Virus record (IMG/VR): IMGVR_UViG_3300020446_000001
Coordinates: 1-64,000 of that record
From: a virus
DNA: 64,000 bases
Reading direction: 5' to 3' (one strand)
Within the stretch, counting starts at the first letter, position 1. Each line of letters starts with the position of its first letter. This document shows, piece by piece, positions 11,012 to 56,735 of this stretch. The position numbers and the translations under genes are program-made. The notes below the pieces were generated by a model that saw only the letters and a program-made list of their open reading frames with translations, was not told where the DNA came from and did not search any database.

Positions 11012-11012
11012 T

Positions 11013-11387: not shown

Positions 11388-11888
11388 TTATTCGTCGTGT
11401 TCGGCGTGGAAATCTGCTACCATCTTTTTCAACCGATTCACATCTTTTTGGAAATATTTGTTTTCTTCAATTCCATCTGGGAATTTTTCTCCGAATCCCT
11501 GCATATTGTATGTCTCATTGGGGTTGCCCCATCCTGATTCAAAGCAGTAACATGGCGTTGATACGACTTCAATAGTCTCTCCCGTATTGGTTTCGACCTC
11601 AAAAGAGTACCATGTATCTGTTTCCATGCTACTGTAAGTGTCTATGATGGTGACACCCCATTTGTCGTCTTTTTCGTGGTATTCCCATATATCCACATTT
11701 TCTCCTTCGTATATTCTCCAGTTTTGGAGATCTATGAATTCCAAAAGTTGTTTTTTGTCCAAAACTGGGCATTCCCAGCCATTCCATGTGTTGTGTCTGC
11801 TTCTTGGTTCATCTTCACCTCGAGAGAGGTAGCCCCAAAAGTCCATACCAGCACAATGCAATTTGGCTAATCTAAATTTTCTTTTCAT
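11388..11888 (-). CDS. Unrecognised 166-aa acidic protein
   Basis: Last gene of the array. Trp/Tyr-rich and acidic, with MDFWGYLSRGEDEPRSR near the N-terminus and a beta-rich middle. Overlaps the upstream gene by 17 bases: the upstream frame reads through the ACCGCTCATG motif. The stop is followed by ACCGCTCAC and a terminator hairpin. Confidence 0.85.
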   Translation of the reverse strand: MKRKFRLAKLHCAGMDFWGYLSRGEDEPRSRHNTWNGWECPVLDKKQLLEFIDLQNWRIYEGENVDIWEYHEKDDKWGVTIIDTYSSMETDTWYSFEVETNTGETIEVVSTPCYCFESGWGNPNETYNMQGFGEKFPDGIEENKYFQKDVNRLKKMVADFHAEHDE

Positions 11889-12108
11889 GAGCGGTATCAG
11901 AAAGTTTGAATCGTTGAGGAGATTCTCGTATCACATCAAATCGAGAATCTGCTGCGAGATACGACTTGACAGCTTGTGAAGCGATATCAGGGCCGTTTCT
12001 TTCTCTAACTCTATTGGCTAAATCAGCTCCCGTTAAGCATTCAGTCTCTTGAAGGATACGGAAAGCATATTCCCTGAATCTCTCTTTTTTTGTCATGTTC
12101 TGTGTCAT
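11872..12108 (-). CDS. Small winged-helix protein, 78 aa
   Basis: Residues 8-70 fit a winged helix: helix (FREYAFRILQETE), LTGADLANRVRER, a recognition helix IASQAVKSYLAAD, and a wing ending FKL. Probably DNA-binding. ATG overlaps the upstream TGA, within ATGA. Confidence 0.8.
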   Translation of the reverse strand: MTQNMTKKERFREYAFRILQETECLTGADLANRVRERNGPDIASQAVKSYLAADSRFDVIRESPQRFKLSDTAHEKKI

Positions 12109-12899
12109 GAGCGGTTCCCCGTTAATTCAAGGGGGATGATTGTACGGAAATGGATTTTACTACTCGATGGTTTTCTTTGAGTAACAAGATAAAACTCCAT
12201 CATCCTTTCATACAGTGTAATCTCAACACTTCCTTTTGCCCACATGGCCTTTCCGATTCTCCCTAGAGATTCAATGAAGTCGTAGCCAACTACCTTTGCT
12301 GTTATCTCTTGCAAAGGAGTTTCTGCATCGCAGGTCGCGTTAATCGACTCGATTACATCGTCATTTTCATCAAGTTTTCGTTTGGACAGTACGAAGAGGT
12401 CTGGGCACCAATCGAGTCCCCATTCAATGTTAACTGGTCCAAAATCTATCCAGCGACTCAATCGCATAGCCTTAAAGGCTTGATACAGATTGCCTGATAG
12501 GTTTGTATGTCCAAGGGCTTTTCCTCTTAGTTCTCCTGTAATTCGTAGCATATTTTCCGGTATTCCAATGCATTCTGTAATGAAAGTTTGGTTGTTTGAG
12601 ACAATTTTTGTTTCTCGTTCATTTAACAATTCTATGTCTAATTCCCGATAATATGTGTTATTGATGGTTCTCTTCAATTGCTTAAATTCAAACTTAGTTT
12701 CGCCATTGTCTATCCACATGCTTTTCGTCATTCTATCATGTTCATTGATAGCAACCCATGTCGGTATTCTTGCGTCTGATTTTCCAGTCATCATTTGTAG
12801 ACCTGTTTCTTCGCAAAAGGTTAACCAACCGTAGTGGCTTTTTGTTTGGTTACCAAGCAGCGTTGTTGCTGCCTTCAAGTCAAGTCTGTCTATAATCAT
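12105..12899 (-). CDS. Unrecognised 264-aa protein, clamp-like tail
   Basis: Alternating beta strands throughout. The C-terminal 40 residues (SVEITLYERMMEFYLVT, then KIHFRTIIPLE) recall the last strands of sliding clamps, and the overall length is clamp-like, but no PCNA signature is clear, so I leave the function open. Confidence 0.8.
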   Translation of the reverse strand: MIIDRLDLKAATTLLGNQTKSHYGWLTFCEETGLQMMTGKSDARIPTWVAINEHDRMTKSMWIDNGETKFEFKQLKRTINNTYYRELDIELLNERETKIVSNNQTFITECIGIPENMLRITGELRGKALGHTNLSGNLYQAFKAMRLSRWIDFGPVNIEWGLDWCPDLFVLSKRKLDENDDVIESINATCDAETPLQEITAKVVGYDFIESLGRIGKAMWAKGSVEITLYERMMEFYLVTQRKPSSSKIHFRTIIPLELTGNRS

Positions 12900-12909
12900 G
12901 AGCGGTTCT

Positions 12910-13347
12910 TCAATCCTTCACAGACTCTCCGACCGTAGGGAAGTAGCGTCTATGAGGCGAGTAAGTTCCATATTTTAGGGAATTTCCCTCAAAGGTGACA
13001 AAGAAGCCGTATCCATCAATCACTTGATTTACCATCTTTCCATCGAGAGGAAGTGGTTCGCAAAAGTCATCGACTCCGGCTGCATCTCTGGTTCTTTCAT
13101 ACAAATCTTCTGTGCCCGGTTCAAAGCCCATAGCATAGGCTACAAGGTTTACTTCACCATCAGGCCCAGTAAGGTTTTCGTAAGCTCCGGACATGATGTA
13201 AATTCCAGAGTCCTTCACAAAGTCGATATGCATTTGATTCTCCATTTCTGGCATAATTCCATACGGATTCGACCATTTTTTTGCTTCCTTCGTGTGTTTG
13301 AAGATTTGTGCTAGTGTTTCGCTTGGAGCGAACAATATTTGTGTCAT
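12910..13347 (-). CDS. Unrecognised 145-aa protein
   Basis: Starts at MTQILFAPSETL; the frame is open far upstream but has no start motif there. The junction reads TAA-TCCGCTC-ATG. Gly/Tyr-rich C-terminal half (GYGFFVTFEGNSLKYG). No family recognised. Confidence 0.8.
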   Translation of the reverse strand: MTQILFAPSETLAQIFKHTKEAKKWSNPYGIMPEMENQMHIDFVKDSGIYIMSGAYENLTGPDGEVNLVAYAMGFEPGTEDLYERTRDAAGVDDFCEPLPLDGKMVNQVIDGYGFFVTFEGNSLKYGTYSPHRRYFPTVGESVKD

Positions 13348-13354
13348 GAGCGGA

Positions 13355-13618
13355 TTATTTTTTCTTTTTCTTCTTACCCCATTTGAGGATTTCAAAGGTG
13401 GTAGCTTCAACTGTAAACCCTGAGCGTTGCGATGTTGTAACTTCCAATGTCTTAAACGGTGCAAGGTCTTTCGGTAATTCAATTTGTCCACTGTCTTTGA
13501 GTTGTTCCATAAGTGACTCTTTGAGGCTGTCAATTTCATGTTTTAGTCTATTGAATTGATCCATTTTTGCTCGTAAATCCTTTATGTCAATCATGACCGT
13601 TTCTATTTCTGATTCCAT
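13355..13618 (-). CDS. Coiled-coil protein with Lys tail, 87 aa
   Basis: Residues 5-50 are a charged coiled coil (IKDLRAKMDQFNRLKHEIDSL); the last six residues are all Lys. It resembles small phage proteins that pair with nucleases or single-strand binding proteins, but this is only a resemblance. Confidence 0.8.
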   Translation of the reverse strand: MESEIETVMIDIKDLRAKMDQFNRLKHEIDSLKESLMEQLKDSGQIELPKDLAPFKTLEVTTSQRSGFTVEATTFEILKWGKKKKKK

Positions 13619-13625
13619 GAGCGGT

Positions 13626-14327
13626 TTACATCTTCTCAAATATACTCAGTACTCTAATACGGGTATTTGGTCCGCATGTCACGGATACCGTCATAGCCCT
13701 TCGGGTATTTGCTGGTGTTTTGTAAACGAGGTGATGTAAAATGGCAAGATATCCTCCAGGTTTTAGAACACGGACTGCTTCTTCGACCCAAGCATAGGGT
13801 CTGATGAATTCTGTCTTCCAAAGTTTTTCACTGTAGTTGATTTTTACTCCATCTGTCGTGTTCATATCATAAGGTGGATCACTAATTACGACATCGTATG
13901 AGTCGTCGTCCATCGGAAATCTTTTCCTTGCATCTGCAACGAAGGTTGGTTCGTTTTCAGCCTGAATATCCATCGTGTGTTCTCCCTCACGGTCTCTTAG
14001 ACTACCTGAAAAAAGGTGTAGGACTTGGTGCTCCGTTGTAATGCCAAGTAATGCATCAAGTCGCTTCAAAAACCCGTTAGGGTAAGCTCCTTTGTACTTT
14101 GCAGTTGGTCGGCCACAAGCCCAGCCTAATCGCCTACTTGGGATGTCTTTGATTCGGTTCCTTTTGTATTTTAGTTGATCGTAATGATTTGCAATCTTCC
14201 AAACAGTACCTTTCGATACTCCATGCATAGAACCTACTTCATCATATGTCAATCCACTGTGAAGGTCAATCAAAACCTTCGTGTGGTCTATTCCATTTAC
14301 TTTTTTTCCTTTCAATGCTAATGCCAT
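13626..14327 (-). CDS. DNA methyltransferase with HTH, DPPY type
   Basis: 233 aa. Residues 26-50 are a helix-turn-helix (LTYDEVGSMHGVSKGTVWKI). LHLFSGSL at about 104-110 is the SAM-binding motif, and DPPY at 150-153 is the catalytic motif of amino-methyltransferases (N6-adenine or N4-cytosine). The region after DPPY has the usual RVLKPGG segment. The fused HTH may give sequence specificity. Likely protects element DNA or regulates it. No restriction enzyme is adjacent. Confidence 0.88.
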   Translation of the reverse strand: MALALKGKKVNGIDHTKVLIDLHSGLTYDEVGSMHGVSKGTVWKIANHYDQLKYKRNRIKDIPSRRLGWACGRPTAKYKGAYPNGFLKRLDALLGITTEHQVLHLFSGSLRDREGEHTMDIQAENEPTFVADARKRFPMDDDSYDVVISDPPYDMNTTDGVKINYSEKLWKTEFIRPYAWVEEAVRVLKPGGYLAILHHLVYKTPANTRRAMTVSVTCGPNTRIRVLSIFEKM

Positions 14328-14334
14328 GAGCGGT

Positions 14335-14613
14335 TCACCATTCATTAGTGTGTCCTGTTTTTAGGAGTGATATTATGATTCTATTGATGGCAATCATTCT
14401 TGAAGTGATTGACTCATCATCGAAGCGTTCAAAATAAGTCATGAGGTCTCCATAATCGTCCATGTTCCATTCCCCGTTCAAAACAAGGTCTGTAACTTTG
14501 TCAATATCAATAGGTCTCAGTTCAAATCTTAGAATATTCGAAGGGAGTTGACCTGTTTGTTCATTGAAACCCCATGTTGCTTCTAACATTTTCCTAATCC
14601 AGTTATCATACAT
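14335..14613 (-). CDS. Unrecognised 92-aa acidic protein
   Basis: Helical and acidic (DYGDLMTYFERFDDE), with a more hydrophobic end (RIIISLLKTG). Seven-base junction with the upstream gene. Confidence 0.75.
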   Translation of the reverse strand: MYDNWIRKMLEATWGFNEQTGQLPSNILRFELRPIDIDKVTDLVLNGEWNMDDYGDLMTYFERFDDESITSRMIAINRIIISLLKTGHTNEW

Positions 14614-14620
14614 GAGCGGT

Positions 14621-15091
14621 TTATACCATGTCTATTACAGCCCACCCTACGCTTTGACAGTAGAGATAACGGCGTACATCGACAGGTCCGTCTGTTGAGT
14701 CTATTGATTGTTCAAAACAGATCATATCCCCGACAGACATGCTTGTGTGGTGTACTTCATTTTGTTCTAACCATTCTTGGCCTTTCATGTCAAAGACGCC
14801 ACGCCAAGTTTTATGGAAATCGGGAGAAAGTGGATTTTGTTGATATTGATTCATCGAAGAAAAAATTCGATTAGCCAATTCAATTTCATCACTTGCGCTT
14901 TCTATATCCCCAACAACTAAAACATTACTTAAGTCATCAATTACCCAGTTGGGTAATTTTCGATAATATTTCTCTACATCCTTATCTGTAAGCTCTGTGT
15001 CAAGATTACAAAATCTATATGGGTGTCTTAGTTCATCATCTACATCATGCGAAGATGTGTAGTAGATTGAAATTTTTTGTTCTTTATTCAT
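14621..15091 (-). CDS. Unrecognised 156-aa protein
   Basis: Start after CCCGCTC. The C-terminal half (VGDMICFEQSIDSTDGPVDV) looks like a small beta fold; the N-terminal half is acidic and helical. The frame open upstream is the antisense-free shadow of the Mom-like gene, so the internal start is preferred. Confidence 0.75.
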   Translation of the reverse strand: MNKEQKISIYYTSSHDVDDELRHPYRFCNLDTELTDKDVEKYYRKLPNWVIDDLSNVLVVGDIESASDEIELANRIFSSMNQYQQNPLSPDFHKTWRGVFDMKGQEWLEQNEVHHTSMSVGDMICFEQSIDSTDGPVDVRRYLYCQSVGWAVIDMV

Positions 15092-15098
15092 GAGCGGG

Positions 15099-15959
15099 TC
15101 AAAGAGCCTTGGGCATCGGCAAAACTGCGTCGATGCTTTTTGGATACAATAGAGAAGGTTTGAACCGTGTTTCGGTTTCTTTTCTTTCCCTTTTGTCACC
15201 GATTGCCCATACATACGCATGATTTCCAGGGTGCTTCACAGTCCTGAGATTTGCAATCGTTCTTTTAATGTATCTTTCATTACTCTCTGAGGGTAATTGA
15301 ACCTGTCCAGTGTGTTGCTCAAACCATTTTCGAGCATAGTGTTGTCCAGATTCCTTATTTCTTAATTTAGACAGCATCCGTTGGTTAACGGACTTGCCGT
15401 TTTCAGTCAAAACCATCTTTTTCGGATGGCTTCTCCCCAGATACTGCCCGTTATGGGCTTGGTAAATCGTTCCAATGTGTCCTGGCATGACTGTATTGCC
15501 TTCAAGTGTCGTTCGCTTGACTGGGTCTGAAAAGGCCAAAACGCTGGAAATGTCATTTAGTGTATCTTTTACAATGGCACCGGATTTTCCAAAGCATTGG
15601 CCTAGAAACCAAGTCTCTCCGTTTGCTGGAACATCATCAAGTAAAACGAATCTGGATAGTTCAATACTATCATGTATCGTCGCTTCGTTGATGTATCTAG
15701 CAAAAACAGAATTGCTCATAGGCACTCCAAAAGCAGCCACACCGCACAGTTCGTTTCCTTCCTCGCTTTCTCGGTACAATCCGACTTGTAAGCGAGTTGC
15801 GGGATATGTTCCACTGTAATGGTGCTTTTGAACGAATTCTTTACCAACTCTTTTTGGAACTATTTCGGCATAGTAGCCGTCTCGATGAACATTGATTGGT
15901 TCACCTGCGGGCCTGTATGATTCTAATTTGTTCCTCCATCGTTGACATAAGTCTTTCAT
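15099..15959 (-). CDS. Mom-like DNA-modification protein
   Basis: 286 aa. Residues 27-80 (YAEIVPKRVGKEFVQKHHYS, then LCGVAAFGVP) follow the GNAT-like pattern of phage Mu Mom proteins, and LSRFVLLDDVPANGETWFLG continues it. Mom turns adenine into N6-carbamoylmethyladenine and protects phage DNA from restriction. The C-terminal 100 residues are basic (KRERKETETRFK) and may bind DNA. Assignment rests on pattern recognition; residue-level confirmation needs a profile search. Confidence 0.7.
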   Translation of the reverse strand: MKDLCQRWRNKLESYRPAGEPINVHRDGYYAEIVPKRVGKEFVQKHHYSGTYPATRLQVGLYRESEEGNELCGVAAFGVPMSNSVFARYINEATIHDSIELSRFVLLDDVPANGETWFLGQCFGKSGAIVKDTLNDISSVLAFSDPVKRTTLEGNTVMPGHIGTIYQAHNGQYLGRSHPKKMVLTENGKSVNQRMLSKLRNKESGQHYARKWFEQHTGQVQLPSESNERYIKRTIANLRTVKHPGNHAYVWAIGDKRERKETETRFKPSLLYPKSIDAVLPMPKAL

Positions 15960-15967
15960 GAGCGGTT

Positions 15968-16192
15968 TCAGCGATTCATCCAATCCGTAATTGTTGATTG
16001 CTTGGTTCGGGATTTAAGTTCAAGGATTTTTTCGTTGTAGAGATTGATTGCTTCATGACGAGTCATTCCGCACCAACCCTCTACATATCCTTTGAATTCA
16101 TCACACCAAATATCCACTACATGCTTCAATACAGGATGATGATAGTTGAACCATTTTACTTCCTTTGTTCCAATCATTCCACTTTCTTCCAT
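15968..16192 (-). CDS. Unrecognised 74-aa protein
   Basis: Contains WFNYHHPVLKHVVDIWCDEF, then a helical charged end. Two Cys are too far apart for a metal site. Eight-base junction. Confidence 0.75.
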   Translation of the reverse strand: MEESGMIGTKEVKWFNYHHPVLKHVVDIWCDEFKGYVEGWCGMTRHEAINLYNEKILELKSRTKQSTITDWMNR

Positions 16193-16199
16193 GAGCGGT

Positions 16200-16547
16200 T
16201 CAGTCGTAATCTTCTGGATTAATTTCTGTGATGTAAATTTCAATGTTATGCTTCTTTAGCCATTCCAAAGTGTCATCAAAACCAAAGGTAGTATCATGGT
16301 CTTGTAATGTAACACCTAACTCTCGGCATAAATCAACCATCATTGCTTGCATACATTCAATTGCCATTGCATTAGAATTGAAGGTCCAATCCATGTCTCG
16401 CTGTCCAAATCCGAATCCAGAACCTCCATCAGTCATGAATTCGTTGTATTTTTCAGCAATTTTATCCATGCTTTTGCTTCTGTCTCTAAAGATAGAGGCA
16501 TCATCATCTTCTGTCAACTTCCATTGTAAGTTTACTCTCCATTCCAT
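16200..16547 (-). CDS. Unrecognised 115-aa protein
   Basis: Starts MEWRVNLQWKL. Acidic, with a Gly/Phe stretch (GGSGFGFGQRDMDW) in the middle followed by a helical domain. Junction of seven bases. Confidence 0.78.
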   Translation of the reverse strand: MEWRVNLQWKLTEDDDASIFRDRSKSMDKIAEKYNEFMTDGGSGFGFGQRDMDWTFNSNAMAIECMQAMMVDLCRELGVTLQDHDTTFGFDDTLEWLKKHNIEIYITEINPEDYD

Positions 16548-16554
16548 GAGCGGT

Positions 16555-16830
16555 TCATTCACCAAGCAAAATATCTCTAACCTTTCTGCTGATGTGATAT
16601 GTGTCCTGTCTCCATTTTCCATCATAAAAACATCCTTGTATTTCAAAGGTGTTAAGGTAGTTGTTGATGTGTTTTATTGTTTTAGGAAAATAATGAATCC
16701 CATCATAGTAAACGGCTTCATCGAATTTTCTTGATGGTCTTGGAGGGTTTATTTCTACCTCAACTTTGGGATCAAGAAATGGCCCCGAGGTTGTAATCGT
16801 TCTTCCATTAGTTGTTTTTTGTGTTTCCAT
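16555..16830 (-). CDS. Unrecognised 91-aa protein
   Basis: Thr/Pro-rich N-terminus followed by a compact domain with DEAVYYDGIHYFPKTIKHI. No motif recognised. Confidence 0.75.
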   Translation of the reverse strand: METQKTTNGRTITTSGPFLDPKVEVEINPPRPSRKFDEAVYYDGIHYFPKTIKHINNYLNTFEIQGCFYDGKWRQDTYHISRKVRDILLGE

Positions 16831-16837
16831 GAGCGGT

Positions 16838-17617
16838 TCAGTGAGTCCAAGACCAAAAGAGAGCTTTTCTCCGCTTTGGTCCTAAAGCCTTTTTCACTTG
16901 CTTTTCGTCGTATTGTCCGTCATCGTCAGACCAGTCGTAACAGAATAAATCTACAGGTTTCTCTTCACAAGAGCACTGAGGATCATCCCAATTATTCAAA
17001 TTAATTTGTACATTTTCAAAAAGTTGGCCTCTTGGCATCACTTCATACAATTCTTCTATGAAATCATTTGGTTCCATAATTAGGTAAGTCTTAGCGATTT
17101 CAACCCAAGGTTCGTAAGAATTGATATTGTCTATCAAGTGTTCCAAGTGGCACATCCAAGAATTTTCGTACTGATTTCTTTGCCATTCGTAGCGCAAATA
17201 GCCTGCGAAGTTATTTATCACTTCGTCTATAGCATCTTTGAGTTCTTCCAGTTCGCCCCATTCTTGATATCCATGTATTTTGCAATTTTCTGAATTCCAA
17301 CTGCTACAATCGATGGTGAACATTAGAGAGGTCAATGGTAAGTCACACCAAGGACACATCGCTTCGAACCATAATCTGACACATACCTCAGGGTATGTTG
17401 GATTTTCTCCATCATCACCCCAACAGGCTTCATGTTCTAATTCGGTCAATATAGATATGTCCGGAATTCGTAAATCATATTCTGTGTTTGCACATTCTGG
17501 CCCGACGCCTCGATATATTGAGACTGGGTCAGTCAATTTGCGATTACAAACTCTACAATTAGTGTGAATTGATTTTATGTTCAGGAAATCCCTCAACACT
17601 GTATCTAATTGTTCCAT
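16838..17617 (-). CDS. DUF6011-like zinc-finger protein, 259 aa
   Basis: Residues 19-44 (TNCRVCNRKLTDPVSIYRGV then GPEC) match the small DUF6011 zinc-binding module found in phage and plasmid proteins, with C21, C24 and C42 as ligands. A second possible metal site is the CPWC further on, and CSCEEK lies near the end. The middle is acidic and helical. Start motif is the variant ACCACTC. Confidence 0.8.
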   Translation of the reverse strand: MEQLDTVLRDFLNIKSIHTNCRVCNRKLTDPVSIYRGVGPECANTEYDLRIPDISILTELEHEACWGDDGENPTYPEVCVRLWFEAMCPWCDLPLTSLMFTIDCSSWNSENCKIHGYQEWGELEELKDAIDEVINNFAGYLRYEWQRNQYENSWMCHLEHLIDNINSYEPWVEIAKTYLIMEPNDFIEELYEVMPRGQLFENVQINLNNWDDPQCSCEEKPVDLFCYDWSDDDGQYDEKQVKKALGPKRRKALFWSWTH

Positions 17618-17625
17618 GAGTGGTA

Positions 17626-17763
17626 TCATATCAGTCCAAGTTCTTTTGCTGCTAATTCTATTGCGACTTCAAGAGGTATGATGTTTCCTCCTTTTGCTTT
17701 TAGGTTGTAGTGCAAATAAATTTGAACTGCTTTTTGTGAATGAGCTTTATTGATAATTTTCAT
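17626..17763 (-). CDS. 45-aa helical peptide
   Basis: A short frame (MKIINKAHSQKAVQIYLHYN onward) with an exact ACCGCTC before its ATG and a TGA followed by TACCACTC and the next ATG. Position inside the array makes it a real gene despite its size. Confidence 0.8.
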   Translation of the reverse strand: MKIINKAHSQKAVQIYLHYNLKAKGGNIIPLEVAIELAAKELGLI

Positions 17764-31057: not shown

Positions 31058-31077
31058 ATGAGTTCTTCGTGAGCGGG

Positions 31078-31956
31078 TCATGTAGTGTTGATATTGAAAC
31101 CGAGAGAATCCTTCATGCGTTTGAATCCAGCATCAAGAAATTCTTTACCAAGTTCAATACCAACAGCACATCGTTTTGTTAGCATTGCTGCCATGCCGAG
31201 GCTGAAAGAGCCTGCAAATGGATCTAATACCGTATCTCCCTCATTTGTGGAGAATTTCAGTAAATCAATCAATAATTCTATCGGCTTTTCCGTTTGGTGG
31301 ACTCGTTTTTTGCCCATAACTCGGGCGTGAGTCAAAACATCAGGAATCGAATTGTTGATTCTTCGTCGTTTTCCTTTAGAGAAGAACATAATCAATTCGT
31401 GCCTTGGCCTTCCATTGTAGCCTAACGATATAACTTTCTTGTCCCACACCCATTGAGAATTGAAAGTAAATCCTGCCTGTTCAGCAAGTTTTACTTGAGC
31501 GTGTATGTAATCTATCGTGTCGTGCTTTGCTGACGGCATAAAGCAGAAAAAATGCCCATTAGGTTTCAAAACACGGAACAATTCGCCAAACATTTCTAAA
31601 TCAAGGTCTCTTGTTTCAAAGTCGAAACCTTTGTTTAGATTTCGTTTGCGTGTTGTCCCGGTTTGCATTTGTTTGTTCAAAGCTTCGTATGGCGGGTCTG
31701 TAATTATTGCATCAAATGAGTCGTCTTCGAACGACTTGATTTTATCCCATGCGTTTCCTTCAATTAAGGCGCATTGAGTTTCACCAATGGTTGCAATGTA
31801 AATTCCTCGGCCTACGCGTTTGAAACATTTGTTTATATTTTCATTCAAACGACCTCTAATAGTCGTTTCTTTTTCGTCTGGTAAGGCCTCGTATATCTCA
31901 CTAAGAGAAGAGGCGTTTTCTAACAAAAAATCAATGAGCTTTTGCTTCAATGTCAT
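31078..31956 (-). CDS. DNA methyltransferase with N-terminal wHTH
   Basis: 292 aa. Residues 1-55 form a winged-helix-like module (FLLENASSLSEIYEALPDEK then GRGIYI). The methyltransferase domain has DPPY at 87-90 and, near the end, LDPFAGSFSLG, the SAM-binding motif; this order is the beta class of N6-adenine or N4-cytosine methyltransferases. FMPSAKHD and the HQTEKP segment are typical. No restriction partner nearby. After its stop comes CCCGCTCAC with no start codon. Confidence 0.9.
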   Translation of the reverse strand: MTLKQKLIDFLLENASSLSEIYEALPDEKETTIRGRLNENINKCFKRVGRGIYIATIGETQCALIEGNAWDKIKSFEDDSFDAIITDPPYEALNKQMQTGTTRKRNLNKGFDFETRDLDLEMFGELFRVLKPNGHFFCFMPSAKHDTIDYIHAQVKLAEQAGFTFNSQWVWDKKVISLGYNGRPRHELIMFFSKGKRRRINNSIPDVLTHARVMGKKRVHQTEKPIELLIDLLKFSTNEGDTVLDPFAGSFSLGMAAMLTKRCAVGIELGKEFLDAGFKRMKDSLGFNINTT

Positions 31957-32526
31957 GAGCGGTTTGTTACACTTGTTTTCGGTGATGTCCTGTATATCGG
32001 AACAAGGGTCTTTCGTCGTTTCCCTCCCTAGCACACTGCTCAGGCCAGTAACCTTGTGAACTAAAATTATTGCAGAAGCTTGTATGGGTTCCAAAAAGAG
32101 GCTTGTTCTAGTTCAAGTCCGCCTCACCGTCCTTGGCAACAAAGCAACTGTCCAAATAACTGCAGAACTAATTTCAGCAACTAGACTTCTTCTGAACTAG
32201 ACCTTGATCTGTTCATACTTTGTCATGGGCTTTATTTCGTCTGTCTGTGGACAGGTGAGCGGTTCGTGCGGATACGCCATGCGTATTACGGCCAGTCCTA
32301 AGACTCCTGCCGATTAGTCCGTTGACAATTAATATCTGGACAACGAAACTATGAAAACCTCGTAGTTGGTCTATCGGTTATCCTACGCGAGTTTCGCACG
32401 AAGCACTACCTCATTTTTGAACTGCAGTGACCTTGAATTACTGGACTTCTTCCAAACTAGACCGTAATCTGTTTGTACTTTGTCTCGGAATATTGGTGTT
32501 CTGTCTGTCCTCGGGTAGTGAGCGGT
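31957..32526 (-). ncRNA. Noncoding stretch with two related RNA-like units
   Basis: About 570 bp without a gene in the middle of the dense array. It contains two related units (32160-32264 and 32422-32527), each beginning on the minus strand right after ACCGCTCAC, and a perfect TACGC-CAT-GCGTA hairpin near 32270. The array motif in front and conserved core suggest noncoding RNAs. No RNA family is recognised. Confidence 0.5.
32160..32264 (-). repeat. RNA-like unit A
   Basis: Minus-strand copy A. It shares with copy B the blocks ACAGACAGA, GACAAAGTA, AACAGAT, GGTCTAGTT, GAAGAAGTC and a final CTGCAG, in the same order and nearly the same spacing. Confidence 0.6.
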
Positions 32527-37520: not shown

Positions 37521-37571
37521 GAGTGGTTTAGCAACAGTGGGTTTTGGTATTACAACCTATCTATGAGTGGT
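37521..37571 (-). other. Mini noncoding cassette
   Basis: After the upstream stop the minus strand reads ACCACTCATA, about 30 nt without a usable frame, TAA, then ACCACTCATG of the next gene. It looks like a cassette whose start codon changed to ATA, or a spacer of unknown role. Confidence 0.45.
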
Positions 37572-44236: not shown

Positions 44237-44321
44237 GAGAGGTGCTCTCCACCACCTAAATATGGTGGGAGTTCAAACTGCATTCCTTTTGGTCCATGGC
44301 AGCATCTGGAGAGCGAGCGGT
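44237..44321 (-). other. Structured 85-nt spacer
   Basis: Between the methyltransferase stop (followed by ACCGCTCG) and the next ATG. CTCTCC pairs with GGAGAG near its ends and CCACC pairs with GGTGG around TATTTA. A noncoding RNA or attenuator-like element is possible. Confidence 0.45.
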
Positions 44322-48334: not shown

Positions 48335-48352
48335 ATTTAGTTAGTGAGCGGT

Positions 48353-49803: not shown

Positions 49804-50244
49804 CTAAATGAACTTCTCGCGTGAGTCGTCTTCCCATCGTTCTCTCATTCGCTTGATACCATCTGCCGGAACGCCATGCTTGTTTCTATCTGCAAGCTCT
49901 TGGTCGGTTGGTTCGTGATATCTATAGTTTTGATTGAAGTTTAAGATTTCGTAATCATAGCCATTGGCTACAGCGAGTTTGATGTAATTTGAGTATTCCC
50001 ATTTCATAGTGTTCGTATTATCAACGATGATGTGCTCTGCTTGTCCAACAAAGTTCATTGCATCGATGAATTTACCAAAACACCATTGGTGAGCTACTGG
50101 TACTTGCGCACCAACAAAATTATACTTGCCATCTTTCATGAAGAAGTCATCTGCCGAACAGACAACTGCATGTGGAAAATGGCTTGCATATTCTGATTTG
50201 CCTGTGCTGGGTAATCCTCTCAAAATTTGTACTATTTTTTTCAT
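49804..50244 (-). CDS. P-loop kinase, polynucleotide-kinase-like
   Basis: 146 aa. RGLPSTGKSEYA is the Walker A loop of the PNK/zeta-toxin group (AAA_33 type). VCSADDFF and VDNTNTMKWE fit the substrate-site Asp and the lid region, and the C-terminal Arg-rich helix (RMRERWEDDSREK) fits too. Such kinases phosphorylate nucleic-acid 5' ends, nucleosides or small molecules. Target unknown. Confidence 0.85.
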   Translation of the reverse strand: MKKIVQILRGLPSTGKSEYASHFPHAVVCSADDFFMKDGKYNFVGAQVPVAHQWCFGKFIDAMNFVGQAEHIIVDNTNTMKWEYSNYIKLAVANGYDYEILNFNQNYRYHEPTDQELADRNKHGVPADGIKRMRERWEDDSREKFI

Positions 50245-50540: not shown

Positions 50541-50561
50541 ATGTGAGCGGCGATTGCCCTA

Positions 50562-50954
50562 TCAGAAAGGGCTAACCATGTATTTTTGTTCCTTTGGATA
50601 GTAAAACATAACCGTGTTTAGGTGTGTTGCTTTTAGGTCTTTGAGTCTCATATATTCTTCGGCCTCTTTACGCTGTTCAGGCGTAAGTTCAGAGGAGAAT
50701 GGGTTAGGACCCTCGTAGTTGCGTTCCATTGTTACGGTCATTCTTGAACTACTACGAGCTACTTGAAGTTCTTTCATACAGAAATCAGCGTCAAGTAGGT
50801 CGTCTATGGATACTTCCAACTGCTTCGCCATGTCGCTTAGTGCAGTCGGCCATCGTTTTACACGGTCTGGGTGTAATTTTACACTCCAGTATCCGGTAAA
50901 GGTTCCAAGTTTGTTTCCAAAGGCTTCAACGATATCTTCGTATTTGTTATCCAT
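50562..50954 (-). CDS. Unrecognised 130-aa protein
   Basis: Contains HPDRVKRWPTALSDMAKQLE, an HTH-like stretch, and an acidic C-terminal half. Start motif ACCACTC. Last gene before the tRNA-like element; between them is CCGCTCAC. Confidence 0.77.
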   Translation of the reverse strand: MDNKYEDIVEAFGNKLGTFTGYWSVKLHPDRVKRWPTALSDMAKQLEVSIDDLLDADFCMKELQVARSSSRMTVTMERNYEGPNPFSSELTPEQRKEAEEYMRLKDLKATHLNTVMFYYPKEQKYMVSPF

Positions 50955-50966
50955 GAGTGGTCTCCA

Positions 50967-51233
50967 TCAACAGATGGAGTTCCATGCGTCGGCAATGTCT
51001 TTTGCTTCACTATTGCTGACTGTAATCCTGCGGCCATTGTTTGAAACACCAATGACTTTCCCTCCTTTAGACCAACGATATACTTGGTCTTGAGCGAATT
51101 TTCTGTACTTTTTCTGTTTTGCTGGATTTTGACTTCCGATCATTCTTGCGGCATGTTCGAAAGTTCCAGTGGTGTTGAGATAGTCAATCGATCCTGTTTT
51201 GTGATTGACTTTCCATGGTAGTCTGCGGGACAT
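50967..51233 (-). CDS. Basic 88-aa protein
   Basis: Basic throughout (NPAKQKKYRKFAQDQVYRWS), with a strand GRRITVSNSEAK. It could bind DNA. Confidence 0.76.
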   Translation of the reverse strand: MSRRLPWKVNHKTGSIDYLNTTGTFEHAARMIGSQNPAKQKKYRKFAQDQVYRWSKGGKVIGVSNNGRRITVSNSEAKDIADAWNSIC

Positions 51234-51244
51234 GAGCGGTTCAA

Positions 51245-52147
51245 TCACACTCCAAATGTGTCTAGTAGTTCCTTCCAATCTACGCCTTTTTGTATGTTGT
51301 GTTGTGCAAACAGGCGAGTACGGATGGCTCTGTCTAGAGAACGGAATGTAACTGGGTCTTCCTCGGATGCGATTGTCTTTAGGTGCGCTAAGACTTCTTG
51401 TTTCATCTGTAGCGGAACCTTCGGAAACATATCCGGGAGTACTTTTTGCATTCTTTCGAGAACCTCGGTTCCTGTCAAGACAACAGGAACAAAGAAGCTT
51501 CTGTCAATTAATGGCTGTGGCATATCTTTCTCCTCTTTGTTAGTGATAAAGATTACTTGACCCTTGAAGGGAAACTTGCGAGGTAGACCTTTGTTGTCTG
51601 CCCATGAAGAGTCCCAACTGATTGTTCGTTCAGCGTAGGAGTCAAGTGCTGCTTTGCACAGTTCCATCATGGTCTCATTCGACCAGATATCAACATCGTC
51701 AAGAACAAGGACACCGCCGTCTTTTCGACGGTGCATTGCGGTGTAGAGACCAGTAGGTGCCATGTGTCCGGCAACCCAAGTGTATCCCTTTGGACCTTCC
51801 TTATCTTCAATCAATTTAGCGGCTTTGAGACGCTCTTTGACTAAGTGTGATTTTCCAAGCCCACCTGTTCCGCAAATGATTACGGAAGGTGAGAATTTCT
51901 GTATCACCATCGTGACGATTGTTTCCATCATTTCGAATCGCTTATTGACAGGCTTTTGAGCCATACGACGAGTTACTACCTCGTTCCTGGCTTTCAATTT
52001 CGCTTGCTTCTTACGGCGATGGGCTGCTTCGACTGCGTCGATAACTTCCCTATCCGCAATCGCAGGTTCATTTGTCACCGGCTTTGGAGCAGGTGTATTT
52101 GTTGCCTGCTGGACTTTGCCGGGTTGTTTCGCGTTTTCGAATTTCAT
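51245..52147 (-). CDS. AAA+ ATPase
   Basis: 300 aa. Walker A ICGTGGLGKSH at 91-101 and Walker B VLVLDDVD at about 151-158, followed by sensor-like FITNKEEKDMP and an Arg (PLIDRSFFV). The first 60 residues are a basic, likely disordered region. Related to phage ATPases that load or move on DNA, or to a helicase loader. Start is the variant ACCACTC after a strong hairpin. Confidence 0.85.
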   Translation of the reverse strand: MKFENAKQPGKVQQATNTPAPKPVTNEPAIADREVIDAVEAAHRRKKQAKLKARNEVVTRRMAQKPVNKRFEMMETIVTMVIQKFSPSVIICGTGGLGKSHLVKERLKAAKLIEDKEGPKGYTWVAGHMAPTGLYTAMHRRKDGGVLVLDDVDIWSNETMMELCKAALDSYAERTISWDSSWADNKGLPRKFPFKGQVIFITNKEEKDMPQPLIDRSFFVPVVLTGTEVLERMQKVLPDMFPKVPLQMKQEVLAHLKTIASEEDPVTFRSLDRAIRTRLFAQHNIQKGVDWKELLDTFGV

Positions 52148-52175
52148 GAGTGGTGCAAGTTGGCGCAGAACGAAC

Positions 52176-52211
52176 GAAAGCCCCACACCGCAGATACGGT
52201 ATGGGGCTTTC
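52176..52211 (-). terminator. Hairpin before AAA+ gene
   Basis: GAAAGCCCCA pairs with TGGGGCTTTC, extended by ACCG/CGGT. Lies about 30 nt before the AAA+ start; terminator or attenuator. Confidence 0.7.
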
Positions 52212-52382
52212 TAATACGCTGCGTGAGTAGTAAGTGCTGTTTTGGCTCGCCATCCTCCTGCTTGCCATGGATGCACTAACTCCTATGCTTATATTCACTT
52301 CCAGAGGAAGCTATTCCCGTTCCATTGGGCCAGATTGATTGATCATCTTAGTGAGATGGGTTAGACCAATTCTGTTAGCATT

Positions 52383-52412
52383 CTACCTTTTGATGTCGTT
52401 AATTACCTTCAT
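52383..52412 (-). CDS. 9-codon mini-ORF after array motif
   Basis: ACCGCTCATG followed by MKVINDIKR and TAG. A leader peptide or remnant; the motif is exact, but the frame may not be functional. Confidence 0.35.
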   Translation of the reverse strand: MKVINDIKR

Positions 52413-52427
52413 GAGCGGTGCAGTTCA

Positions 52428-52456
52428 CCCCCCTCGCCTTTCGGGTCATCGGGGGG
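52428..52456 (-). terminator. GC-rich hairpin
   Basis: CCCCCC-CG arms with one bulge around CCTTTCGGGT. Follows the stop of the gene at 52482. Confidence 0.6.
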
Positions 52457-52481
52457 CTGCGTTGAAATGACGCTGTGGTGC

Positions 52482-53375
52482 TCAAGCATCCATGACCACA
52501 AGGGTCGGGAGGCCATCTGCGCCAATGGTCAAGTCGACAAAGTACTGTCTAATGCGGACATTGCAGTCCAAAGCACGACGCCAGGAGTTACCCTTGTCAG
52601 GCTTGGCAACTGGGAACCCCTTGATTCCACTGTCAACGAGCATTTGATGTGCTTCGCCGTCTAGTGTGTTCGGAGTATTGCCTCGTCCCGTCAGTATGAA
52701 GCCGGGGTTGATTCCGGCGCCATCACTGCGCTTTAGGGACATGCGGCGGTTGTCACCATTTATGTCTGCGAGGATTTGGACTAAGCCGTGTTGGGCGTGT
52801 CCCCTCTTGGAGTCGTTTCGTTCTTGGCCGTCCTTTGTGTAAGGAATCGACTTGAATCGAATGGCTGCATTAATCAGCAAACAGTATCCGTCAACTAAGA
52901 CCTTGTCTGTGGCACTGTGAAGTTGCCACTTGGCGAGTCCGGTATAGTCAGGCGCAGGCCAGTGAGATAGGCCTTTGTCTCTGTTATCCGGTGCAGGTAG
53001 CATCTCAAGGAACAAGGCAGGATTGCCTGTTTCTGGGTTTGCTGCCATGTATGCCTTGCACATCCCAGCCTCTTTCATTGGAGCGATTACCGACTTGAAG
53101 CGAGTAATATCGCCATCAGTGGTGGTCTTGCCCTCAAGGTCTGTGGTCTTCAACATGTAGAGAGGATTGTCTTCCTTACTCTGTGTGACATAGGTAAAGC
53201 GAACTCCGCCATTCGTTTTGTAAACGGGGAACTTCTTTCCTTTGCGCCACACTGTCTCGACGGACACACCGTTAAGGTGTTGCTCCGTATCGAGTATCAT
53301 ATTACTGAACTCCTCGATGGAGATGTCTGGGTTGTTTTGCGTCTTGTTATCTTTTGTTTGCATTTCGGTTTGCAT
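52482..53375 (-). CDS. Unrecognised 297-aa protein, higher GC
   Basis: No recognised domain. The middle (SATDKVLVDGYCLLINAAIR) and the end (LDCNVRIRQYFVDLTIGADG) look like alpha/beta globular folds; a single-strand DNA binding or recombination role is a guess from context only. Start motif is ACCGCAC, and it follows a structured spacer. GC is higher than in the rest of the array. Confidence 0.8.
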   Translation of the reverse strand: MQTEMQTKDNKTQNNPDISIEEFSNMILDTEQHLNGVSVETVWRKGKKFPVYKTNGGVRFTYVTQSKEDNPLYMLKTTDLEGKTTTDGDITRFKSVIAPMKEAGMCKAYMAANPETGNPALFLEMLPAPDNRDKGLSHWPAPDYTGLAKWQLHSATDKVLVDGYCLLINAAIRFKSIPYTKDGQERNDSKRGHAQHGLVQILADINGDNRRMSLKRSDGAGINPGFILTGRGNTPNTLDGEAHQMLVDSGIKGFPVAKPDKGNSWRRALDCNVRIRQYFVDLTIGADGLPTLVVMDA

Positions 53376-53377
53376 GT

Positions 53378-53640
53378 GCGGTTATGCACCTCGTCTGTCT
53401 GACGCCCACGGCTGTCTCAGCCTTTGGGTTCAATGCTATCGAGGGTTCGGTTCACAATGCGGGTTTCCACACCCATGAACTGCCTTCTTCTCACTTTACA
53501 AGCGAGAAGGGGGGCGTAGTTCTCATTTCTTACATACATCTTATGTTCCCAAGCAGGCAACTGCCGAAGCGTTGCCTACTATCTTTCCACAAGAGTAGCG
53601 GTATTGTTACAGTGAGCGGTTTTCTGAGTAGTTCTCAGAA
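53378..53640 (-). other. Structured 260-bp spacer
   Basis: Minus strand begins AACCGCTCAC without a gene, then GGCAAC/GTTGCC, CTTCTC/GAGAAG and GGCT-GAGAC-AGCC hairpins, ending at the ACCGCAC of the next gene. Looks like a noncoding RNA or long leader. A hairpin TTCTGAG/CTCAGAA lies right after the upstream gene. Confidence 0.5.
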
Positions 53641-53943
53641 TCAGCGATAGGCGCCAATTGCTAGACCTGGTAAGTAGGATAAATCCCCCTTACGGGCTGC
53701 TTGACGAAGGCCACTGAGTATCCTGTGTAGATCTCTGTTGCCTTGGAAACTGATTTCACCGTCAGTCTCTACCTCTAACTCGAAGTCAAAGGCACCAGTT
53801 TGCCTAAGGTCGTCTTCACATAGGAGGCAAAGATGCTCAGGCGCTTGGTTAATCGTCAATACCTTGCGATGACCCACCCCCTTGAACTCAGGGGCGGTCA
53901 TGTCGGCTAGGCAAATGGCGCATGTACAATTTTTACTTGTCAT
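53641..53943 (-). CDS. Zinc-finger protein, 100 aa
   Basis: CTCAIC near the start and HLCLLC about 30 residues later form a four-ligand zinc site. The rest is beta-rich then basic. Confidence 0.8.
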   Translation of the reverse strand: MTSKNCTCAICLADMTAPEFKGVGHRKVLTINQAPEHLCLLCEDDLRQTGAFDFELEVETDGEISFQGNRDLHRILSGLRQAARKGDLSYLPGLAIGAYR

Positions 53944-53977
53944 GAGCGGTAGATGTAGTAATATAACCCTAACGAGT

Positions 53978-54352
53978 TCAAAATTCTTCCAGATTGTTCA
54001 ACATTGTCTGTTGAACTTGCTTTGCGTTATTCCAAGCAATCTGTTTCCTCCGGTAGGAAACCCTGCGAGGGTCTGGGAAAGCTTCTGGACAGTATCGTTC
54101 AACTACATCTTGATGTGCAGTGACTTGATTCAATAGTCCAAGGCATGTCTTAGAGGCAACACTGCGTCCGTCCCAACCGTTGAAGAAATTCATCAATGAT
54201 TTCTCAACACGGGCATAAACACCTTGAGGCGCTCTTTTCCTTACCATAGACAACCAACCTTCCCAACACAAAACCCACATGGGGACTTGCGTATCATCAG
54301 AAGTTTGTATTTTCGTGTCACTTGGCATAATTGTTCTCGGTGTAAAAAACAT
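53978..54352 (-). CDS. Unrecognised 124-aa protein
   Basis: Helical, basic (VRKRAPQGVYARVEKSLMNF), ending in an acidic LEEF. Start motif ACCACTC, with a GC-rich hairpin region upstream. Confidence 0.77.
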   Translation of the reverse strand: MFFTPRTIMPSDTKIQTSDDTQVPMWVLCWEGWLSMVRKRAPQGVYARVEKSLMNFFNGWDGRSVASKTCLGLLNQVTAHQDVVERYCPEAFPDPRRVSYRRKQIAWNNAKQVQQTMLNNLEEF

Positions 54353-54411
54353 GAGTGGTCGGTCTTTCCCGGGGGTCTTCAGAGATACTGCTCTGTATCA
54401 GGAACCAAGCC

Positions 54412-54693
54412 TCAAAGTTCAACCATGCTTGGCAAAGGAGGTGTCTTCCTTGTGCCTTTACGAGGTTTGGACTTTCGCTTTTGAGTTTTTGTTGCAGCAT
54501 TGGCTTGCTGTACTTTGAACTCATTTTCAATGGCCTTTGCTAGATTATGAACACCAAACACCGTTGGCAGTTCATTAGTCGGGTCATTGATAATCCAGTT
54601 TCCAACAATCACTGGCTCGTAAAGAGACTTAGATGGCTCCTTATCAGCATTGGTTGTTCGAGGTTTTCTGTTCACATTTATGATTCTAGTCAT
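54412..54693 (-). CDS. Unrecognised 93-aa basic protein
   Basis: Ends in a basic low-complexity tail (KTQKRKSKPRKGTRKTPPLP); middle has VIVGNWIINDPTNELP. Start motif ACCACTC directly abutting a terminator hairpin. Confidence 0.77.
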   Translation of the reverse strand: MTRIINVNRKPRTTNADKEPSKSLYEPVIVGNWIINDPTNELPTVFGVHNLAKAIENEFKVQQANAATKTQKRKSKPRKGTRKTPPLPSMVEL

Positions 54694-54700
54694 GAGTGGT

Positions 54701-54744
54701 GGCCCCCGTCGCCTCATGAGCCGAGGCGCTCAGTGACGGGGGCC
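54701..54744 (-). terminator. Strong two-part hairpin
   Basis: GGCCCCCGTC pairs with GACGGGGGCC, and inside it GCCTC pairs with GAGGC. It ends one base from the ACCACTC motif of the next gene. GGTCTGTTAGACC beside it is a further small hairpin. Confidence 0.8.
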
Positions 54745-54773
54745 GGGGGGTCTGTTAGACCTGCCTCGCTAAA

Positions 54774-55202
54774 TTAGCAAGAGTAACCATAGGGGTTAAG
54801 CCAATCCGAGTAAATTCTTTGATTGGGGGACTTAGGTCCCAACTTCTCTACATCAGCCCTTTGGCTTTCGGCATCAAAGGGGACTGGGTTGATTCGGTCG
54901 GGCTTGCCATGAGATTTCCTCTCTTCAATTGTCCACCCAAAGGCGGTTGCAAGAGCAAGGAGTGTTTCAGGAGCCTCGGACCAGCGTCCAGAGTAGAGTG
55001 CGTTTCCCATGTTCAAGACTTCCACTAGTTGGTGCTCAATTGCACGAAATGTGGTCATTCTTTGTTCGGATACGGCTTTTATTACATCGTTCAGAGGCAT
55101 CATTGTTGATAGAAGGCTCAAGGTCAATTCAATTAGACCTTGTTTCTTCTTGATGAGGTTCTCTGCTGTGCGGGCTAGATCTGCATTAATTATAGTTTGC
55201 AT
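54774..55202 (-). CDS. Helical 142-aa protein
   Basis: Helical first 90 residues (DLARTAENLIKKKQGLIELT), then a polar end. Start motif ACCACTC. Function unknown. Confidence 0.77.
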   Translation of the reverse strand: MQTIINADLARTAENLIKKKQGLIELTLSLLSTMMPLNDVIKAVSEQRMTTFRAIEHQLVEVLNMGNALYSGRWSEAPETLLALATAFGWTIEERKSHGKPDRINPVPFDAESQRADVEKLGPKSPNQRIYSDWLNPYGYSC

Positions 55203-55263
55203 GAGTGGTAGAGATAGGTGATGATGTGTACCGGGCATCAATTTTTATCTCAGTCGTATTAGT

Positions 55264-55305
55264 GGGGGGTAAAGCCCCCCCGGAGGCCTAAGCCTTCGGA
55301 GGGGC
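55264..55305 (-). terminator. GC-rich double hairpin
   Basis: GGGGGGT/AAA/GCCCCCC and a second GGAGGC-CTAA-GCCTTCG hairpin overlap in this stretch. Likely terminator between the genes at 55359 and 54774. Confidence 0.65.
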
Positions 55306-55358
55306 AGTTATATTACGCATAATATATCAGTTCATAAATGAATTTGAGAGAAAAAAAA

Positions 55359-55490
55359 TTATTCTTTCTTGACAACTTTGGTGTCGTTCAAAGCTTGAAC
55401 GGTTGATTTTACCATATCGTCGTCTGCGTTCTCTGCGCAAATTTTTCTAAAGTCTGCTAGTATGCGTTTCAATATATCATCTTTTGACAT
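55359..55490 (-). CDS. 43-aa helical peptide
   Basis: MSKDDILKRILADFRKICAE and a further 23 residues, ending in KVVKKE. Start motif ACCGCAC. Preceded by the structured noncoding region. Confidence 0.75.
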   Translation of the reverse strand: MSKDDILKRILADFRKICAENADDDMVKSTVQALNDTKVVKKE

Positions 55491-56297
55491 GTGCGGTGGT
55501 TAGGCGCCTCGTCGCTGGCTGGTTTCCCATTACCACTATCGAGGTTATTCCGTTATCTAGGGCAAGCCCTAGTTTAATCGAGGATTACCAGTCCTCTATT
55601 TCCCAAGACCTCTTACCAAATATGAGTATCAAACTGGACCGTAAAGTCTGTTTGACAGAGCATATCGTAAAGAGCATCTTTTGTTGCGTGTGTGGTGTGT
55701 GCGGTTGCCAATTCACTAGGGAAATCGGATTCCTAGTTTACACACACTGTTGCCTTGCTTCTATGAAGCGACATCCAGACGCCCTAGCGTCTTACTGTCC
55801 TACAGGCAGGAGTCAGCAACATCAATCCAAAGTTCAGCCCAATAAGTGGGCTTCGAGTTTGAGATTGAATCGGCTTTGTCCTCAGTGCGTTTCACTTGTT
55901 GCGAGAAGACTCGTTTACGGCATGTTTCAGCCAACTTCTCTGGGTAGAAACCTTCGACCAATGCTAATGATTACCTACTCTAAAAGAGTGGTAATTAGTA
56001 GCAAATTACGGCCAAAGTTTTCTGGTTTTACGAGTGGTGGGAGGGTTGCCAAAACCGTCAATGATTTCGCAATCGGCCCATGTTGCGGGCTACTGTTGCG
56101 GTTTTGGCTGGCATCGTTAACTAGTTTAATGCCTCCCTCATTAGTTAGAGCCACAGGGGCCCTAGGGTGTGTCATTTGTGGGGGGTGGGGCCCCCCAATG
56201 AGGCCGAAACCTCTGGGGGGCATTTACAATCCGCAGATTGTATCGGTCCGAATGAGGGTCGTTATTCGGACGAATATGTTACAAGACTGGTACAGAT
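55491..56297 (-). ncRNA. Structured noncoding region, about 800 bp
   Basis: No convincing gene on either strand; the long plus-strand frame over it has no protein-like composition. Perfect or near-perfect hairpins include CTAGGG/CCCTAG (55558), GACG-CCCTAG-CGTC (55778), GCCCA/TGGGC (55837), ACTCT/AGAGT (55977), CCAAAACCG/CGGTTTTGG (56047-56107), ACAATC/GATTGT and a terminator-like hairpin at 56190-56221. This is typical of one or more structured RNAs. The family and strand are not known. Confidence 0.5.
56190..56221 (-). terminator. GC-rich hairpin
   Basis: GCCCCCCA-GAGG type stem around CCGAAA; six C/G pairs at its base. Probably ends the gene at 56298 on the minus strand. Confidence 0.65.
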
Positions 56298-56735
56298 TTA
56301 GAATTTCCACCATGGTTTCTTAATTCCGAGCGAGGGCGAGAAATCAGTTCTGCGACTCCATCGGGCTCCAGGTTTTGTATTGGCATAAGAGTAATCTATT
56401 GGTAAAGCAAAATAATCTTGTTCTGCTTTTACTGCTTCAGGACTTGGGTTCCATTTCAAATTCTGGAGTTCCATCCAAGTTTTGTTGTTCTCTTTCATCC
56501 ATCGTAATTCATGGTCTTTCACCTTAACGGTGAATCCACCTGTGCCTTTGGTTAAAGTCCAAACAACATCGGAGGTATCCTCATTTGACATGATTTTTCT
56601 TCCAGTGTCTTTTTCTTGCCCTAATACATAGGGTTCGGGCTTTCTTATCCAATTTTCAAGAAATTCATTTATTTGTTCTGTGTTTGATAGTACAGTCGGT
56701 AGTAACTTCGGTATTTTTGTATTTTTATATTTCAT
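56298..56735 (-). CDS. Unrecognised 145-aa protein
   Basis: The rightmost array gene with the start motif (ACCACTC). Basic start (MKYKNTKIPKLLPTVLSN), then a Trp-rich middle (LRWMKENNKTWMELQNLKW). Possibly nucleic-acid binding. Confidence 0.78.
   Translation of the reverse strand: MKYKNTKIPKLLPTVLSNTEQINEFLENWIRKPEPYVLGQEKDTGRKIMSNEDTSDVVWTLTKGTGGFTVKVKDHELRWMKENNKTWMELQNLKWNPSPEAVKAEQDYFALPIDYSYANTKPGARWSRRTDFSPSLGIKKPWWKF

Follow-up and report, generated by a model that had tools for sequence, protein, structure and literature searches.

The window analysed here comprises the first 64,000 nt of the IMG/VR virus record IMGVR_UViG_3300020446_000001. The whole record is 127,570 bp long and its two ends repeat each other, i.e., it is terminally redundant, so the genome is probably complete. 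The minus strand of the window carries a long array of genes whose ATG start codons are abutted, with no spacer at all, by the 7-nt word ACCGCTC:

11388..56735, minus strand: array of 107 consecutive open reading frames (ORFs), each with its ATG flush with ACCGCTC or a one-base variant of it at -7 to -1

A start-abutting word in 107 genes

An array start was defined as an ATG that is preceded by a word with at most one mismatch to ACCGCTC and that opens an ORF of at least 19 codons. Such starts run from position 56735 to 11888, with the last ORF ending at 11388, and they number exactly 107, in agreement with the first-pass annotation's estimate of about 107 consecutive minus-strand genes. The exact motif precedes 86 of them, and ACCACTC accounts for about half of the remainder. 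In a profile over the 107 starts, positions -7 to -1 hold all of the information (A in 95%, the four C residues invariant, G in 87% with A there in 10%, and T in 98%). No TATA-like element and none resembling the B recognition element (BRE) was found upstream of these starts, where the information from -50 to -10 does not exceed 0.12 bit; the small signal at -10 to -8 is the preceding stop codon.

The string ACCGCTCATG is found 87 times on the minus strand of the window and never on the plus strand, and the remainder of the record adds none; CCGCTCATG is found 92 times on the minus strand against none on the plus strand. An order-2 Markov simulation of the array, the kind of background comparison that had been proposed as a check, gave an expectation of 0.055 copies of ACCGCTCATG (maximum 1 in 200 runs), as opposed to the 87 observed. 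Plus-strand ACCGCTC occurs in the whole genome at 59214 and 113381 only, the former being the single one in the window, and no copy of this type precedes an ATG on the opposite strand. Within the sense coding sequence of the array, no truly internal copy was found where 2.2 were expected, a depletion that is not significant.

The array genes are not homologous to one another, as had been stated on first reading. BLASTP among the 107 proteins at 1e-3 yielded three weak pairs only, and in Pfam and PHROG searches with 98 array proteins no family was shown by two or more of them. Of the 106 junctions, 35 have exactly 7 nt between the stop codon and the next ATG, the same figure that had been put forward as approximate, and 7 more have 6 nt, the A of the stop codon doubling as the A of the motif. 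Overall, the distance from the word to the upstream stop ranges from 6 to several hundred nt, whereas its distance to the ATG is always 0.

Array genes also differ from the other genes of the same virus in how their starts appear to be read. We scored a Shine-Dalgarno (SD) feature as a purine-rich GGAG, GAGG or GGTG core 4-12 nt upstream of the start. Such cores precede 15 of the 107 array genes, which is the background level (13.7%), as opposed to 41 of 71 non-array genes (Fisher 1e-9); the non-array list is a simple ORF chain with first-ATG starts, so that its fractions are approximate, and counts and E-values depend on these gene calls outside the array. This bears out the earlier view that the word is not an SD. 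Stop-start overlaps are found at 2 of 106 array junctions, compared with 18 of 50 non-array junctions of the -4/-1 type (P = 1e-8). Early codons are A-rich in the array and not in non-array genes: ACA is the second codon in 20 of 107 array genes versus 2.5% internally (P = 3e-12), and AAA in 18 of 107. Since array genes have no SD and, at the 35 junctions with a 7-nt gap, no room for a leader, their messages are most simply read as leaderless, and they probably begin at the A that follows the motif. The first-pass annotation had reached the same reading, which, as far as sequence can tell, is still the best one.

Predicted structured RNAs and copies away from start codons

The description of ACCGCTC as a start-codon motif holds for 107 genes but is incomplete, as the array has another 11 sense-strand ACC[GA]CTC copies that had been missed. 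Not one of the 11 lies inside a gene, even though coding sequence takes up 90% of the span (P about 1e-11). The next base is A after 8 of these 11, and a purine follows the word in nearly all copies. Four non-ATG copies (48352, 44321, 37571 and 32526) abut a stop codon, as does a variant, CCCGCTC, at 31077. The non-ATG copies and the features around them are as follows:

57529..58136, minus strand: five tandem copies of about 122 bp each (the copy at 57529-57650 is degenerate, 65%)
57586..57592, minus strand: ACCGCTC/A copy bordering a structured RNA on its 5' side, immediately downstream of the tandem repeats
56765..57585, minus strand: predicted structured non-coding RNA of 821 nt with motif copies flush at both ends (fold z = -9.8)
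56758..56764, minus strand: ACCGCTC/A copy at the 3' border of the 821-nt RNA
53614..53620, minus strand: ACCGCTC/A copy 20 nt past a gene end, then a folded RNA (z about -5)
48346..48352, minus strand: copy at a stop codon, then a strong hairpin
44315..44321, minus strand: copy at a stop codon, then a 72-nt unit with mutually paired 5' and 3' ends
37565..37571, minus strand: ACCACTC/A copy at a stop codon
32520..32526, minus strand: copy at a stop codon, opening a non-coding interval
32257..32263, minus strand: second copy within the non-coding interval opened at 32526
31071..31077, minus strand: variant CCCGCTC/A at a stop codon
11379..11385, minus strand: ACCGCTC/A copy two nt past the stop of the last array gene, then a hairpin and no array gene beyond

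The final base of the 821-nt RNA, directly before the second motif copy, is paired in both the minimum free energy and the centroid structures, and no Rfam family matches this RNA even at a relaxed threshold. Also at the head of the array, another large stretch without genes (55498-56290) is predicted to fold strongly (z about -7). Other non-coding intervals there fold well too, in contrast to those at 32.5-31 kb. Because the additional copies are intergenic and lie at stop codons, at the end of the last gene and at the edges of structured RNAs, the word, judged by its placement, marks the borders of RNA units whether coding or not and is not tied to ATG. A simple model in which a guide RNA pairs with the word finds no support, as no array non-coding RNA contains the perfect complement GAGCGGT.

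The repeats of about 122 bp sit upstream of the array, between it and a divergent gene for a TFB-like protein (see below). From this position, they may be a candidate promoter, or promoter cluster, or a replication origin region.

Other gene starts, transcription genes and relatives

Three kinds of gene start are found in this one genome: SD genes, class II promoter genes and array motif genes. The SD-type non-array genes are mainly structural and show frequent ATGA overlaps. The class II word, AAACGGTTGAACC, is found upstream of about ten genes, 25-28 nt from the ATG, and at a distance of 27 nt from both a tRNA-Lys and a predicted tRNA-Arg. Since its spacing to ATGs and to tRNA ends is equal, the most fitting interpretation is a promoter from which transcription starts at the ATG or at the tRNA 5' end (+1), giving leaderless transcripts. 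Copies of it in the window, together with the transcription genes, are:

713..725, plus strand: class II word, 28 nt before ATG 741
7741..7753, plus strand: class II word AAACGGTTGAACA, 26 nt before ATG 7767
8495..8507, plus strand: class II word, 27 nt before ATG 8522 of the A''-like gene
59204..59216, plus strand: class II word, 27 nt before the tRNA-Lys 5' end (59231)
60248..60260, plus strand: class II word, 27 nt before the ARAGORN-predicted tRNA-Arg (60275)
60357..60369, plus strand: class II word, 27 nt before ATG 60384
11254..11266, minus strand: class II word, 26 nt before ATG 11240 of a separate ORF beyond the array
8480..11011, plus strand: RNA polymerase (RNAP) A''-like subunit, 843 aa as an ORF; start from the class II promoter at ATG 8522
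58114..59205, plus strand: TFIIB/TFB-like protein, tentative (Pfam TFIIB E = 8e-5, just under the cut-off)

The plus-strand ACCGCTC at 59214 belongs to the class II promoter of tRNA-Lys and was therefore rejected as an array-type (class I) copy. In the relatives described below, class II words are absent or give single matches.

The A''-like protein matches Pfam Rpb1_5 (E = 4e-20), its best solved match is archaeal Rpo1C (E = 7e-23), and it carries the trigger-loop and C-terminal motifs as well as a large insertion. No gene for an RNAP A' or B subunit was found in the genome of this virus. A structure model of the TFB-like protein (predicted local distance difference test score of 39) gave no support to the assignment and was not used. 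The virus also encodes a thermosome-type group II chaperonin (Cpn60_TCP1, E = 5e-107), whose closest cellular counterparts are those of Poseidoniales and other Thermoplasmatota, which is why we consider Poseidoniales the probable host. Magrovirus-related Poseidoniales viruses likewise have a group II chaperonin and archaeal-type information genes. This marine virus, of the tailed type, probably infects archaea, in line with the archaeal setting assumed earlier.

Genes for DNA modification are present in the array, namely a Mom-family protein (15099-15959, E = 8e-26), an adenine-type methyltransferase (31078-31956) and a weaker methyltransferase-like protein (13626-14327). The array also encodes a P-loop kinase of the polynucleotide-kinase type (49804-50244).

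Single-protein scans for A'' and for the chaperonin found nothing. Alignment-based searches were needed to find a viral clade that shares the chaperonin, the polyprotein and capsid-side genes with the window virus: G008 (56.8 kb), G013, G029, G014, G020, G024 and G030, the last of which is 140 kb long and terminally redundant. In five of these relatives the encoded RNAP A subunit is a single fused protein of about 1610 aa, and both of those tested with Pfam have all five Rpb1 domains:

L298:6498-11351 and L288:10164-14990; also in G024, G029 and G030: fused archaeal-type RNAP A subunit

In G013 and G020 a family B DNA polymerase gene adjoins the fused RNAP A gene; of this A subunit, the window virus has kept just A'', which lies close to the same RNase H gene. 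Two long fused ORFs on contig L112 are possibly polyproteins, one of 2464 aa (4514-11908) with DUF5824, DNA ligase, TFIIS zinc ribbon and FGase domains, the other of 1611 aa (12080-16915) with guanylate kinase and DUF7831. Two other contigs with A''-like matches, L116 and L117, were rejected; their apparent start motifs are coding tandem repeats, and they look like fragments of large eukaryotic viruses.

The exact word ACCGCTC is absent from the relatives tested, although very near records may lie outside the set searched. The proposed search for the same array in other metagenome contigs also came back empty: scanning IMG/VR with TGAACCGCTCATGA, a 14-mer containing the word, returned 110 stretches, none with more than two copies of CCGCTCATG. 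Conservation of the letters themselves thus did not hold among the relatives examined, but G030 has a different word in the same place. Its GGTTCACAG is flush with the ATG in 17 exact genes (18 with GGTTCATAG), on one strand only (L310-L312, 53-91 kb), and sits with fixed elements at about -52 to -38 (CATAGAACCGAACCA) and -29 to -22 (GAATTRCA). Seven copies of the G030 word are not at an ATG, and all seven are then followed by A. From this layout, the G030 word looks like part of a promoter. Start-abutting words therefore recur in the clade with different letters. Related CTCATAG/A words in G030 come after hairpins at the ends of preceding genes, and several short junctions at 50.6-54.2 kb of L310 have a small perfect hairpin and then NCAG/ATG directly. 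In G013 (L298-L301) and G029 (L318), the repeated context AAGGAGGCTTCACA/ATG consists of a strong SD plus TTCACA flush with the ATG.

Proposed cleavage at the word and its alternatives

We slightly favour sequence-specific cleavage of RNA at the word, yielding leaderless mRNAs, over a promoter that consists of an initiator only, and give cleavage a probability of roughly 0.45. One or a few long minus-strand RNAs would be transcribed from the region upstream of 57.6 kb, and a sequence-specific endoribonuclease, viral or host, would cut directly after the word (ACCGCUC/A). The cuts would release about 107 cistrons and several structured non-coding RNAs, the 5' end of each mRNA would be the A of the AUG, and translation would be leaderless and without SD. 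Array messages do need a route of translation other than that of the late genes, which have SDs. Cleavage would explain the lack of upstream elements, the copies at stop codons and after the last gene, the RNAs flush with the word and the scarcity of overlaps, which is expected if RNA is cut at the junctions. The copy after the last gene stands before a hairpin only, where a promoter has no evident use. We infer the 5' ends at A, their origin by cleavage, the enzyme and the timing of expression from this pattern. The fuller picture, in which more than 100 genes and several structured RNAs are cut from one very long transcript without tRNAs, splicing or SD, is put forward tentatively. If cleavage does take place, one may speculate that the P-loop kinase at 49804-50244 could act on 5'-hydroxyl RNA ends.

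Several observations weigh against cleavage. Protein family searches identified no nuclease for it among the virus proteins. Three array junctions overlap, two as ATGA and one by 17 nt (gene at 11888), and a complete cut there would remove a stop codon. The rarity of overlaps is itself partly forced, since the word must fit the upstream reading frame. Strong hairpins in the array head look like terminators, and new promoters would be needed beyond them. Lastly, the start-abutting word of G030 has a layout like that of a DNA promoter, with copies on one strand and non-ATG copies followed by A, so that ACCGCTC could, by analogy, be an initiator.

An initiator is indeed what the strongest competing explanation proposes, and we regard it as quite possible, though on balance doubtful. 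Here, a viral or virus-modified RNAP would read ACCGCTC at -7 to -1 and start at the A of the ATG, the viral A'' acting with host subunits and perhaps the TFB-like protein, so that each gene and non-coding RNA would have its own leaderless transcript. The A''-like subunit and the tentative TFB-like factor, the complete fused A subunits of the relatives and the purine next to the word in nearly all copies are consistent with this, as are the class II promoters of the same virus, with their leaderless +1 at the ATG or tRNA 5' end, and the G030 word with its fixed upstream elements. Poxvirus intermediate promoters similarly combine a core at -26 to -13 with an initiator at -1 to +3 (PMC12917281). 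Unlike class II and G030 promoters, however, the array has no conserved element at -50 to -10, and the word is G+C-rich just where DNA must melt. One copy comes after the last gene with only a hairpin beyond, and the structured RNAs that end flush with the next copy are left unexplained.

The remaining explanations account for less of the pattern. That a ribosome, an rRNA or an initiation factor reads the word beside the AUG is unlikely: the zero spacing in 107 of 107 genes, the A-rich early codons and the lack of SD would all suit a translation signal, but copies at stop codons and ahead of non-coding RNAs have no AUG to serve, and the virus has ordinary SDs at its late genes. We consider it more improbable still that the word is a border at the DNA level, i.e., a recombination or insertion site adding units of word plus gene, with the start position as a by-product. 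Non-homologous genes arranged head-to-tail with a common 7-mer at each border would fit such cassettes; a border would not, however, need a distance of 0 to the ATG while its distance to the upstream stop varies, and no sister array with exchanged cassettes was found in the IMG/VR scan or among the relatives. Short repeated words are present in many genomes, and ACCGCTC might in principle be one of these, an operator or an uptake word of the ordinary kind, or else arise from faulty assembly. Position and strand refute this as the main explanation and leave it barely credible: the word is strand-specific and flush with the ATG in 107 open, non-homologous genes, none stands before opposite-strand ATGs, and the genome is terminally redundant and otherwise normal.

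Either of the two leading mechanisms would be new for archaeal viruses, be it a 7-nt cleavage word that yields about 107 leaderless mRNAs or an initiator-only promoter. If a nuclease is involved, the enzyme would be an RNA cutter specific for a 7-nt sequence; if the initiator version is true, an RNAP with a viral subunit in it would read the promoter. According to a 2017 review, no archaeal virus encodes its own RNAP (PMC5569661); the viral clade described here, whose members have part or all of an RNAP A subunit, allows this to be tested. The class II word and the G030 word would supply promoters on which a hybrid or viral archaeal RNAP could be used.

Comparison with known systems

Tested against features that define SD sites, BRE/TATA promoters and the start-associated sequences (SAS) of mycobacteriophages, ACCGCTC does not qualify as any of the three. 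In cluster K mycobacteriophages, SAS and extended SAS (ESAS) are genome-specific asymmetric words before many unrelated genes, with an unproven role; SAS is a 13-bp sequence, GGGATAGGAGCCC, with an SD-like AGGAG core and 125 sites over eight genomes (PMC3203893; PMC12699233). Similar to SAS, ACCGCTC has many copies, mostly in one orientation, at non-homologous genes outside the structural ones (here 87 exact copies and 107 genes). Unlike SAS, which lies upstream of the start, it is 7 bp long, flush with the ATG, without an SD core and present at 107 genes of a single genome, and it is also found at gene ends and RNA borders.

A BRE plus TATA core promoter is common to 11 of 13 early genes of the archaeal virus SIRV2 (PMC11065993). 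As there and in other archaeal viruses, one upstream word is common to many small virus genes without homology to each other, but the ACCGCTC array has neither BRE nor TATA (about -35 to -22). Poxvirus intermediate promoters have a TAAA initiator and an AT-rich core at -26 to -13 (PMC12917281). The likeness to poxviruses would lie in a virus-encoded RNAP, of which A'' alone was found here, in a TFIIB-like factor (tentative here) and in an element at the start; the class II word of the window virus matches the position of the poxvirus core. In contrast to poxviruses, the array has a G+C-rich word alone, and the RNAP is partial only (A'', with no A' or B found).

For RNA cleavage, an archaeal MazF, MazF-hw, recognises the 7-mer UUACUCA, and E. 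coli MazF makes leaderless mRNA by cutting near the AUG (PMC5408214). The likeness would lie in sequence-specific RNA cutting, in words of up to 7 nt and in leaderless products, cleavage here being a proposal. MazF is a toxin with scattered sites, whereas the present word is built in at every gene border and no MazF-like gene was found. In animal mitochondria, tRNA punctuation marks the borders within polycistronic RNA, as gene-end words do in yeast mitochondria, and the resulting mRNAs are leaderless. Unlike in mitochondria, the borders here would be marked by a 7-nt word instead of tRNAs, in a DNA virus and for more than 100 cistrons.

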